Assembly: GCA_024401055.1 (NCBI GenBank)
Contig: JAKSLT010000014.1
Coordinates: forward strand, 1 to 43,427
Length of the DNA stretch: 43,427 nt
Origin: Bacteroidaceae bacterium
GTDB taxonomy: Bacteria; Bacteroidota; Bacteroidia; Bacteroidales; Bacteroidaceae
Direction: 5' to 3'
In this document: one piece after another, positions 2,604-43,427 of the stretch
Layout: each line of letters starts with the position of its first letter
Numbering within the stretch: the stretch's first letter is position 1
Program-made: the position numbers and the translations under genes
The notes under the pieces: model-generated
What the model saw: the letters and a program-made list of their open reading frames with translations, nothing else
What the model was told of the DNA's origin: nothing
Database searches by the model: none

Positions 2604-2731
2604 ATTTATATGAATCAAGTAAATGCAGGTGGTATGGAAGGTCGTCAATATGCTGGGCTTACCCTCTACGAAACGGGCTGAAAGCACGGAAGTGTCCAGC
2701 CCGATTTATTCAAGTAACGTTTCATATAAAT
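2604..2731. repeat. 11-bp inverted repeat enclosing a hairpin
   Basis: ATTTATATGAA (2604-2614) recurs inverted at 2721-2731. Inside, around 2677-2702, GGGCTG and CAGCCC pair, with an inner CAC/GTG stem. No gene is credible here. It may be a small non-autonomous element or structured RNA; weak evidence. Confidence 0.35.
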
Positions 2732-2749
2732 GGACATAACTTGAATTTT

Positions 2750-2775
2750 TTTTGTCAAAATATTTTACAATTTCG
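2750..2775 (+). repeat. shared 25-mer, copy 1
   Basis: The string begins TTTTGTCAAAATATTTTACA and continues ATTTCG. Near-identical copies lie at 3232-3256 (plus) and 43262-43286 (minus), each near a 21-bp array. It contains the palindrome AAAATATTTT. Function unknown. Confidence 0.75.
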
Positions 2776-3006
2776 GTACGTTTTCTTGGCGATTTTCGGC
2801 CGTGGAGGCCAGCGCGCGAGGCCTCGGACGGAAATATGCGAAATTTGAGCACGCCGTTACGGTGCTCATTTATAAACGGTTAACGCCGCAAGGACTCGCG
2901 GGAAAATACTTCCGAGATAGCTTAGTTCCCTTTCAGTTGCGAAAAAGAGCCGGAGGGAAATGAACCTTTTGTGATTTTTTCGGAAAACGGCGGGTTCCAG
3001 TGAAAA

Positions 3007-3140
3007 CTAATCCTCCTTTAATTTGAACTAGTCCTGATTTAATTCGAACTAGTCCTGATTTAATTTGCACTAGTCCTCCTTTAGTTTCTGGTAAAAGGGA
3101 AGTAGTGAAAATTAAAAGGGAGATAGTGAAAATTAAGAGG
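3007..3140. repeat. inverted 21-bp tandem repeat array
   Basis: Four exact 21-base units (3007-3027, 3028-3048, 3049-3069, 3070-3090) have the form CTAGTCCTGATTTAATTTGA with small changes. They are followed by two and a half units in inverse orientation (TAAAAGGGAAGTAGTGAAAA type, 3091-3140). The two arms are partly complementary, so a transcript could fold into a long imperfect hairpin. Read as protein, the left arm on the minus strand gives IKSGLVR heptads and the right arm on the plus strand gives IKREVVK heptads, but neither lies in a credible gene. Same family at 15199-15590 and at the right edge of the window. Confidence 0.85.
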
Positions 3141-3231
3141 GCTGAAGGAGCGAAATGATGGGAAACCGGCGGGTGCGGGGCACCTTTATGCGCATTTTGT
3201 CTTCACTTCGCCGCGATTTCTCCTTTTTTCG

Positions 3232-3256
3232 TTTTGTCAAAATCTTTTACAGTTTC
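3232..3256 (+). repeat. shared 25-mer, copy 2
   Basis: Differs from copy 1 by a few bases (TTTTGTCAAAATCTTTTACA then GTTTC). It lies just past the inverted 21-bp array and in the same orientation as copy 1, so the two copies flank the array. Confidence 0.75.
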
Positions 3257-3317
3257 AAAAAAACGTTATGAAGTGTTTTTTATCAATGTTGTCCGGCGGA
3301 CAGCAATATTTATATAA

Positions 3318-3708: not shown

Positions 3709-4453
3709 CCCCCTTCAGGTACTTGCACACCTGGTCGGCGATGGAGGTCATGCCTTTGTGGGAGGGGTGGCCGCCTTGCTTGTCGATGTTGCTGAGGTCG
3801 AGGTGCTCGTAGCCGTAGTATTTCGTGATGACGTGGGTGCTCTCCACGATTTCGGGACGCAGGCCTTCGTTGATGAGGAAGACGACGCGCATGGCGGGGT
3901 ACATCTCCCGGAGGTCGCGGCAGAGGCGGGCGAGGGCGGGACGATAGGTGAAGAGGTCGGCGCGCGTCCACTGGCCCCACTGGTAGTCGCCCACGGGGGT
4001 GCCGGCCCATGAGTCGTTGGTGCCGCCGAAGACGAGGAGCAGGTCGGGGGCGCCGATGCTGTCGCCGATGTTAACGGCGCGGGCGATGAAGGAGCGGGGG
4101 CTGTAGTCGGCGGGATGGCCGGGGCGGAGGCTGTGGCCGTCGTTGGCGGCTTCTTTCTGGCGCGCGTAGCCCTGGAAGGCGATGGTGCTGCCGCTGTAGG
4201 AGTTGTTTTGCACGAGGGTGGCGCCGAGGCGGCCGGTGACTTGCATCCACCAGGTCTGCTCTACGCTGACGACGTCGTTGGCCTTGTTGTGGCGCTTGGA
4301 GTCGGCGGGGTAGTACCAGAGTTCGTTGATGGCGGGGCTCATGTAGCCTTCGAAGGTGGAGTAGCTGTCGCCGAGGATGGCGATGCGCAGGGGGCCGGCT
4401 GCCATCAAACTTTGGGAGGAAAGAGCGAGGATGAGAAAAAGAATGCGTTTCAT
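3704..4453 (-). CDS. secreted SGNH/GDSL-family hydrolase
   Basis: 249 residues with a signal peptide (cleavage near LMAAG, residues 19-20). Block I is present as ILGDSYSTFEG (Ser nucleophile about residue 30), an Asn-containing NNSYSG block II follows, then the GGTND block III, and a block V-like HPSHKG carries the catalytic His near the C-terminus (residue about 233). These fit a periplasmic lipase/esterase of the SGNH superfamily, such as carbohydrate esterases that remove acyl groups from glycans; the substrate cannot be read from sequence. It stands alone on the minus strand, bounded by REP-like palindromes. The 5' leader carries an 18-base near-perfect palindrome. Confidence 0.88.
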   Translation of the reverse strand: MKRILFLILALSSQSLMAAGPLRIAILGDSYSTFEGYMSPAINELWYYPADSKRHNKANDVVSVEQTWWMQVTGRLGATLVQNNSYSGSTIAFQGYARQKEAANDGHSLRPGHPADYSPRSFIARAVNIGDSIGAPDLLLVFGGTNDSWAGTPVGDYQWGQWTRADLFTYRPALARLCRDLREMYPAMRVVFLINEGLRPEIVESTHVITKYYGYEHLDLSNIDKQGGHPSHKGMTSIADQVCKYLKGE

Positions 4454-15191: not shown

Positions 15192-15590
15192 ATTAGTTCC
15201 CTTTTAATTTTTCCTTCCTCCCTTTTAATTCGCGCGAACGGCGTTCCGTCCGGCGCTACTTCCCTTTTAATTTTTCCTACTTCCCTTTTAATTCGCGCGA
15301 ACGGCGTTCCGTCCGGCACTTCCTCCCTTTTAATTTTTTCTACTTCCCTTTTAGTGTGCGCGAACGCCCCTCCGTTCGGCACTACTTCCCATTTAGTGCG
15401 CGATGTTTCCGTGCCGGTTCGTCTTGGCAGGCCTTTATTTCAAACTTCTTCCCATTTAATTCGAACTACTTCCCATTTAATTTGAATTAGTCCTGATTTA
15501 ATTTTTCCTTCTTCCCATTTAATTTTTGCTAAAAGGGAAGTAGTGGGAATTAAAAGGGAAGAAGTGAGAATTAAAAGGGAAGTAGTGCCG
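15192..15590. repeat. long phase-locked 21-bp repeat array with inverted 3' arm
   Basis: The motif CCCTTTTAATT or its variant CCCATTTAATT starts at 15199, 15220, 15262, 15283, 15325, 15346, 15388, 15451 and 15472, followed in the same phase by CCTGATTTAATT (ATTTA at 15496) and ATTTAATT at 15517. All steps are 21, 42 or 63 bases. Non-matching 21-base slots hold GCGCGAACGGCGTTCCGTCC, giving a 63-bp higher-order unit three times. From 15530 the motif runs in inverse orientation (TAAAAGGGAAGTAGT, starts 15530, 15551, 15572). The whole 0.5 kb between the ABC-F gene and the FKBP terminator is this array; no gene is credible. Confidence 0.9.
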
Positions 15591-23487: not shown

Positions 23488-23531
23488 TCCGCAAAGCCCT
23501 TGTATTTGTCGCGCCTCCCGATTCCCGCTCA

Positions 23532-23619
23532 GTTTCTCCCTGTAAGGATTGGAGTTTCTTCCTGTAAGGACTGGAGTTTTTCCCTGTAAGGACTGGAGTT
23601 TCTCCCTATAAGGACTGGA
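23532..23619. repeat. four tandem 22-bp units
   Basis: Units 23532-23553, 23554-23575, 23576-23597 and 23598-23619 have the consensus GTTTCTCCCTGTAAGGACTG followed by GA, with one or two differences each. They lie between the DUF6078-like gene and the pyrB promoter. The period is not a multiple of three, so they are not coding heptads. Confidence 0.85.
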
Positions 23620-23743
23620 GTCCTAACAGGGGAGGACTGCGCGGGAATGGGAGCGCGGCCGAATTTCTTGGGCGCAAGAACGCCCCAAAACGGGAGATAA
23701 ATGAGCAGAAAGGGGGCTTATTGCCGTTTTAGGCGGGGGAAAG

Positions 23744-43261: not shown

Positions 43262-43286
43262 GAAACTGTAAAATATTTTGACAAAA
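43262..43286 (-). repeat. shared 25-mer, copy 3
   Basis: The inverse complement begins TTTTGTCAAAATATTTTACA and ends GTTTC, nearly identical to 2750-2775 and 3232-3256. Confidence 0.75.
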
Positions 43287-43410: not shown

Positions 43411-43427
43411 CCACTAGTCCTCCTTTA
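43411..43427. repeat. start of a further 21-bp array at the window edge
   Basis: CCACTAGTCCTCCTTTA matches the unit CACTAGTCCTCCTTTAGTTT at 3069-3088. The array evidently continues past the end. Confidence 0.7.

Follow-up and report, generated by a model that had tools for sequence, protein, structure and literature searches.

In the window analysed here, a stretch of 43,427 nucleotides from a Bacteroidaceae bacterium, an array of 21-bp units lies between two copies of a 25-mer. The locus raises the question whether array and 25-mers belong together, how widely such an arrangement is distributed and what might recognise it. The window is the entire contig C10 of its own genome (G000), a 2.31-Mb draft of 103 contigs and 83% completeness, in which contig breaks often fall inside the elements described below.

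Structure of the locus in the window

The features of the locus are listed in Table 1. The flanking 25-mers reported by the initial annotation were confirmed in the same orientation, with the left copy ending at 2774 and not at 2775; the mean number of 25-mers expected by chance in the window is 0.00 (100 dinucleotide shuffles). The array is real as well and starts at 3005 instead of 3007. TRF reports 4.0 direct 21-bp units at 3005-3087 and 2.4 further units at 3092-3141, in agreement with the four direct and two and a half inverted units counted before. The inverted units fall into the 21-bp register of the direct ones: together they form one array of about seven units whose interior changes orientation, with the outer letters AACT/CACT at 3005, 3026, 3047 and 3068 and AATT at 3110 and 3131. 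A third 25-mer, described at 43262 near the right edge, was found again 126 bases before the cut-off array. The other array of the same unit family has no 25-mer nearby (at most three mismatches).

Table 1. Features of the 25-mer elements and related arrays in the window
Feature	Position	Strand	Basis
Left outer extension, homologous in siblings	2706..2749	+	blastn to seven sibling loci; alignments begin at 2706-2750
Left 25-mer, TTTTGTCAAAATATTTTACAATTTC	2750..2774	+	pattern match
Left domain, with blocks such as CCGTGGAGG and GGAAATATGCGAAA	2775..3004	+	sibling alignments; similar blocks readable in G028 elements
21-bp array with some seven dyad units that share one register, the first four 'direct' and the following ones with 'inverted' interiors; frame AAYT-N11-ARTT-NN	3005..3141	.	
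Right domain	3142..3231	+	sibling alignment
Right 25-mer, TTTTGTCAAAATCTTTTACAGTTTC, oriented as the left one, 1 mismatch	3232..3256	+	
Right outer extension	3257..3300	+	sibling homology stops at 3270-3300
Other array, same unit family as 3005..3141, with 63-bp and 21-bp periods	15197..15587	.	
25-mer belonging to a second element, which the contig end cuts off	43262..43286	-	
First array bases of the second element, up to the contig end at 43427	43413..43427	+	

Carriage of the element by a phage or plasmid was considered and rejected, as exact searches with the 25-mer gave 0 matches in viral contigs and nothing similar to window positions 2690-3300 was found in plasmids and phages. At the gathering threshold, no Rfam family was detected in the window. 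The locus is probably one copy (about 2706-3300) of a dispersed and non-coding element that is likely to be mobile.

A dispersed family in the genome

Allowing up to three mismatches, the 25-mer occurs at 94 sites in G000 (46 forward, 48 reverse) compared to 0 for the reversed pattern used as control. These sites are found in both orientations on 59 of the 103 contigs. With the same tolerance the 21-bp unit gives 330 matches versus 21 in the control. Forty-four of the 94 sites form 22 pairs on the same strand with mates 300-720 bp apart, and unit matches are present between the mates in all 22 pairs. Another 40 sites lie at most 720 bp from a contig end and are hence only partly judgeable. Among the remaining ten, seven have a degenerate mate with an array in between, and one (C25:16096), judging from its flanks, terminates a group A element on the right and is preceded by the tip of an array. 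The last two are copies in coding sequence, one in holA and one in an HTH gene. Away from contig ends, no solitary 25-mer was found outside the genes of G000. The composite element suspected in the initial annotation is thus supported by the 22 pairs with an array between them, by eight of the ten others with a worn mate or an array, and by the same arrangement in a second species, G028.

The aligned copies sort into subfamilies. In group D (C2, C71), near-identity extends from the left to the right 25-mer; the left flanks are unrelated and the right flanks have the further repeat GCCTGCGGCGCTACATGAATTAGGAA in common. Group A, which includes the window copy, reaches approximately 45 nt beyond the left 25-mer and 15-45 nt beyond the right one, and seven sibling loci match the window by 75-95% over parts of 2706-3300 (blastn). 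The boundaries of the element consequently vary by subfamily, starting from the left 25-mer in group D and about 45 nt outside in group A, and no target-site duplication was established. By reading, the outer extensions appear partly inverted in some copies. Because copies have unrelated flanks, the element would seem to have moved within the genome. Two group A copies (L083 in C26 and L087 in C15) are 84 bp longer between the 25-mers than the window copy, the extra 84 bp being a G+C-rich stretch directly before the array.

According to a simple ORF caller, 30 of the G000 places are intergenic, 17 of them between co-directional, eight between convergent and four between divergent genes, with one undetermined. 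At six of the 30 places a short frame of 80-159 codons, perhaps spurious, overlaps the element.

Arrays with and without the 25-mer

The first 100 of the 330 unit matches yielded 44 array loci, of which 24 have a 25-mer within 720 bp and 20 have none. Seventeen of these 20 were examined at 2.6 kb: in 14 of them nothing resembling the 25-mer is found with up to seven mismatches, L263 and L264 have a 25-mer-like pair at four or six mismatches and one has a single site at seven mismatches. As to the three left over, L154 has no 25-mer-like site (at most six mismatches), the sole 25-mer of L153 is the distant C25:16096, and the third is the window array at 15486. Four arrays without 25-mer (L266, L273, L274 and L275) belong to a subfamily with its own leader. 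The initial annotation regarded an independent occurrence of 25-mer and units as speaking against a composite element. This independence holds in one direction: arrays without a 25-mer occur (20 of 44 loci among the first 100 matches), and 25-mers outside genes are hardly ever without an array. In G000, therefore, a 25-mer outside genes comes with an array, whereas an array does not need a 25-mer. The composite element is real, yet not obligate.

Register and dyad symmetry of the arrays

The units of G000 follow the frame AAYT-N11-ARTT-NN, which is palindromic outside, and their interior flips once per array. The register was analysed in 47 mutually related array loci with at least three units, 44 of which have units of both orientations. 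In 42 of these 44, direct and inverted units share one 21-bp register, and the other two have another offset. In 43 of 44 arrays the plus units are followed by minus units, resulting in a convergent layout. Since the 47 loci are relatives, the fixed register may be partly inherited. The arrays have between 5 and 14 detected units, a number that is variable and not strictly fixed; these counts are based on fuzzy patterns derived from the unit, and the unit profiles are biased toward the pattern.

The same arrangement in a second species

A scan of 84,980 species genomes (the own genome possibly excluded) for the exact 25-mer identified four contigs of Prevotellaceae bacterium HAN089, a metagenome-assembled genome of 86% completeness that was sampled here as G028. 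Of 58 genomes of the genus, just two, G000 and G028, contain the 25-mer with up to two mismatches. A shorter 25-mer pattern with up to one mismatch matched six of 399 genomes of the family: G000 and G028 with many copies and four others with one or two matches at one mismatch. The control for this pattern gave one match in another genome. A search of related genomes for the 25-mer near arrays, proposed by the initial annotation, has thus revealed many copies in one other species, G028, in which the arrays differ in their unit letters.

Fifteen G028 loci (17 sites) were examined and 11 of them contain a pair of 25-mers 347-400 bp apart. Locus L126 has a second 25-mer with an indel about 380 bp off, L124 is a pair in coding sequence and L134 is cut by a contig end. 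At L133:1538 (C133) a lone 25-mer, possibly a solo site, precedes a FecCD-type gene; neither a mate nor an array was seen in its vicinity. By reading, the paired loci are ordered as 25-mer, CATGGCTGG-like block, GAAATACGC-like block, units of the type AACT-N11-AGTT-NN and again 25-mer. The letters of the unit are unlike those of G000 (AACTTAGTCTGCGTTAGTTCG) and the 21-bp frame is common to both. With at most one mismatch, the G000 unit is absent from all other genomes of the genus apart from one single match in G056.

The comparison of 14 G028 loci with the examined G000 loci revealed no element at a common position. The G028 locus L133 and the right edge of the window were considered as a shared position, both being near a FecCD gene; this was rejected, as the 25-mer stands before the gene in one case and after it in the other.

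Copies of the 25-mer in coding sequences

In contig C9 of G000, two 25-mers with 0-1 mismatch lie inside holA and the neighbouring HTH_3 gene (L070:2059-2083 and 3836-3860). G028 likewise has copies with 0-1 mismatch in holA and the HTH gene (L124:1067-1090 and 3119-3142). The coding copies flank an AT-rich intergenic region of about 1 kb upstream of the HTH gene, whose product shows an HTH_3 match and a weak Phage_CI_repr match. A match to this gene is present in 54 of the 58 genus genomes. Among 30 HTH loci, own genome included, holA was found upstream in the examined flank in 11, and in those 11 the G+C content of the 800 bases preceding the HTH gene is below that of the gene itself.

Between G000 and G028, the holA copies of the 25-mer are identical in 24 of 25 positions, compared to 55% identity of the genes, and the same codon is used for 8 of 8 identical residues versus 68 of 168 gene-wide. 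For the HTH copies, identity is 22 of 25 and the same codon is used in 6 of 6 versus 31 of 67 gene-wide. These conserved codons suggest a constraint at the DNA level; the argument loses weight because codon bias is uncorrected and the runner-up among separate 25-base windows has 21 of 25 identical positions in either gene. Insertion of a peptide into the HTH protein by a scar was rejected, since related peptides (MKYIDKP, VKVIDRP) are present there in several other species, as judged from the readable rows for about half of the loci. It therefore seems to be the DNA that is kept, and not an insertion. Mainly because of the kept coding copies, we assume that the 25-mer may be recognised by something, and its preservation in holA and the HTH gene offers a handle for finding the recognising factor.

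The 1777-bp pair in C9 was also considered as an autonomous element and rejected, as its ends lie in holA and the HTH gene and no transposase is found between them. The idea of a replication terminus at the holA-HTH locus was dropped, as G056 and G003 are without a clear skew switch there. In G004, the cumulative GC skew peaks at about 0.80-0.81 Mb, a possible replication terminus not far from the HTH gene of that genome (0.82 Mb).

21-bp arrays in related species

Three further relatives (G056, G003 and G004) were sampled. G056 contains 253 adjacent dyad pairs of the type GTTTG-N7-CAAAC-NATN, compared to 0 in the control; the pattern is palindromic and its reverse count redundant. The first-listed loci and a 260-kb sample together give 23 distinct arrays with three or more units; 21 of them have four units, one has three and one six; in the sample itself it is four in 12 of 12 arrays. 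At least three arrays with five or six units are present among the matches listed, and the number of four is a rule, not a law. At the two middle positions of the spacer, which the search left free of letters, A is invariant in the sample (36 of 36) and T nearly so (35 of 36). The 14-mers shared by the first eight arrays are unit sequence and not flank (among 60 of 66 listed).

In G003 we detected 122 double units of the AAAAACGTSGGAGATTTT type (control: 0), with the unit AAAA-N10-TTTT. In total, 283 kb contain 23 21-bp arrays; 11 are of the AAAAACGTSGGAGATTTT type, have 2.6-5.0 units (TRF) and show no similarity of their flanks by blastn. Reversed interiors can be read in two arrays (L326:5466 and L330:13877), and the automated count gave no mixed array. 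Neither in G056 nor in G003 do the arrays have the convergent layout of plus and then minus units.

A 500-kb sample of G004 is without such an array family: 5 of 18 arrays with a period of 19-24 have period 21, and 14 listed ones have no common unit. The 21-bp period and the dyad frame thus recur in four species, with different letters. By extrapolation from the samples, there would be about a hundred arrays per genome, mostly with four units in one species. As a rule, dispersed repeats in bacteria are regarded as either selfish (REP, MITE) or regulatory. Here the letters change from species to species, whereas the period and the dyad frame stay constant, as does for the most part the number of units in one species; this is the pattern expected of coevolution between a protein and its site. 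With this pattern across species, a role of such arrays as nucleoid or regulatory platforms becomes testable.

Possible function and alternative explanations

We see about an even chance that the arrays are dyad sites for a protein on one face of the DNA, carried in this genome by dispersing elements bounded by 25-mers. As 21 bp equal two helical turns, every unit would lie on the same face of the helix; each pseudo-palindromic unit would be the putative site of a dimer, and several dimers of a single DNA-binding protein might attach to an array or wrap it. In G000 and G028 this array would be packaged between two directly repeated 25-mers. These may be recognised as DNA by a second factor, either a mobilising enzyme or a regulator, and would represent a second recognised site for dispersal or regulation. 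A same-face binding array, as put forward in the initial annotation, fits the results, and the idea gains strength from the single register, the dyad symmetry of the units and the arrays of four units in G056; the protein side is putative. Mobility, binding, the identity of the proteins and any effects on neighbouring genes or the nucleoid are what we infer from the sequence. As a possible model for the four-unit arrays, the Lrp/AsnC-type regulator BarR has four to five semipalindromic sites spaced regularly along one face of the DNA, for which wrapping by an octamer was proposed (excerpts of PMC10201364). The spacing near integral helical turns is shared, with 21-bp steps in the arrays counted. 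BarR differs by 15-bp sites with 15-17-bp spacers in single promoter regions, compared to 21-bp repeats at many places per genome (same excerpts).

A broader form of this proposal is speculative and in our view rather improbable. According to it, the genome-wide 21-bp dyad arrays with species-specific letters in several species of the genus would be platforms for a fast-evolving DNA-wrapping protein, captured here by mobile elements bounded by 25-mers, whose ends would also be kept in coding DNA as functional sites.

The family belongs with dispersed repeats carrying an internal minisatellite. Searches of open-access literature listed no paper on the 25-mer/21-bp family; the nearest described element in architecture, as far as the excerpts of PMC4596501 go, is BrickBuilt from Porphyromonas gingivalis, a dispersed intergenic MITE in which 23-nt tandem units are enclosed by a leader and a tail. 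Stem-loops are predicted for BrickBuilt, and its host range is narrow. BrickBuilt resembles the present family as a dispersed intergenic element of Bacteroidales with tandem units of about two helical turns, and a tandem array between a conserved leader and tail is present here, too. PgRS/MITE464 of P. gingivalis, compared by description (PMC4596501, in part), also is a MITE with internal tandem direct repeats, and differs by 41-nt units and by terminal inverted repeats almost identical to those of BrickBuilt. BrickBuilt itself has IS5-like terminal inverted repeats and a 23-nt unit (excerpts of PMC4596501), whereas the unit here is 21 bp and the conserved 25-mers at the ends of the element are direct, not terminal inverted repeats. 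Compared to what is described for BrickBuilt in these excerpts, the units here are dyads in one register, and their arrangement is common to two species with different letters.

It is possible, though less probable, that the family is an ordinary MITE-like element with a minisatellite, in which a transposase acts on the ends and the array is a functionless by-product of slippage. The high copy number, the mostly intergenic position, the subfamilies with near-identical recent copies and the variable unit number in G000 agree with this explanation, for which BrickBuilt, with its tandem units between leader and tail, is a precedent (excerpts of PMC4596501). However, the 25-mers are direct and not inverted, they are kept in coding DNA, and no transposase was linked to them, Y1_Tnp being the one family searched. 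Furthermore, slippage alone is not expected to produce four-unit arrays without shared flanks, as in G056, or one register through orientation flips.

Among short palindromes in bacterial genomes, BIMEs are placed alongside REP sequences. The nearest system in this respect, based on parts of PMC3733652, is REP/RAYT, comprising short palindromic repeats in high copy number, mostly outside genes and sometimes clustered. Units outside genes with palindromic outer letters are found here as well, but at a fixed 21-bp spacing, which sets them apart from REP/RAYT as described in those parts. By eye, no GTAG/CGTC tag of the REP type was seen in the units. A RAYT as mobiliser was rejected, as the distribution of Y1_Tnp genes does not follow that of the arrays: G000 has four, G004 two, G056 one and G003 and G028 none. 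Arrays without any Y1_Tnp gene occur in G003 (96% complete) and G028 (86%), and G004 shows the reverse, with two genes and no such arrays in its sample. One of the four G000 genes is near an element.

It is unlikely that the array acts as a hairpin or cruciform, the fold considered in the initial annotation, whose long stem would act on transcripts by termination, stabilisation or silencing. The arrays do fold well as RNA, with a mean z of -5.55 and -5.20 on the two strands relative to shuffles (window 2980-3160 alone: -1.84 and -2.23), and the convergent layout in 43 of 44 arrays would suit a stem. If pairing were selected, however, mirror units should match best, and in 30 arrays with at least two units on each side they do not: 12.8 of 18 positions are complementary in 72 mirror pairs versus 13.2 of 18 in 279 non-mirror pairs (p 0.15). 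Selection for hairpin pairing is therefore not supported. Against the stem also stand the arrays of G056 and G003 without convergent layout, the lack of an Rfam family at threshold in the window and the position between convergent genes in only eight of 30 G000 places, compared to 17 co-directional and four divergent ones.

Slightly less probable still is that the paired 25-mers are attachment sites of a site-specific recombinase, from which the body is excised as a circle with one 25-mer and inserted at another one, the holA and HTH copies being ancestral targets. Such sites would account for the direct orientation at both ends, a near-palindromic core readable as TTGTCAAAA-NN-TTTTACAA, the copies in two neighbouring genes of both species and the apparently single intergenic 25-mer of G028 (L133). 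On the other hand, a pool of targets is missing, as G000 has no single non-genic 25-mer away from contig ends, and subfamily homology runs past the 25-mers.

Very unlikely is a role of the 25-mer as operator of the neighbouring HTH_3 (Cro/CI-like) protein, which would autoregulate at its own promoter region and silence the elements via the pairs that flank the arrays. The coding 25-mers do flank the AT-rich region upstream of the HTH gene as the element 25-mers flank the arrays, and the HTH_3 and weak Phage_CI_repr matches of the protein fit, but the gene is found in 54 of 58 genus genomes and the 25-mer in 2 of 58, and nothing obviously special can be read from the HTH of G000 and G028. A centromere or partition array, suggested initially by way of a partition protein, is extremely improbable despite the regular 21-bp spacing on one helical face, because the 25-mers are spread in both orientations over 59 of 103 contigs and not confined to one locus with a partition operon; moreover, array letters differ between species of one genus and the 500-kb G004 sample is without such a family.

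Further repeat families

A second dispersed repeat, GCCTGCGGCGCTACATGAATTAGGAA, is found at 85 places in G000, partly as a 42-bp tandem (42 being twice 21). It points outward from one or both ends of many 25-mer elements, for example at L239:1596-1820. In the 100-kb stretch G004:C1:800001-900000, 9-bp repeats (GAAGTTAAC) are abundant and organised in higher-order repeats of 65 and 83 bp, not in 21-bp arrays. A separate family of 22-bp arrays with about four units each (AGTTTCTCCCTGTAAGGACTGG; ACTCCAGTCCTTACAGGATAAA) is present at 23531-23621 of the window and at L240:1362-1444 and L241:1353-1435. In the 260-kb sample of G056 (C6), fourteen 22-bp arrays with several different units stand beside the 21-bp family.
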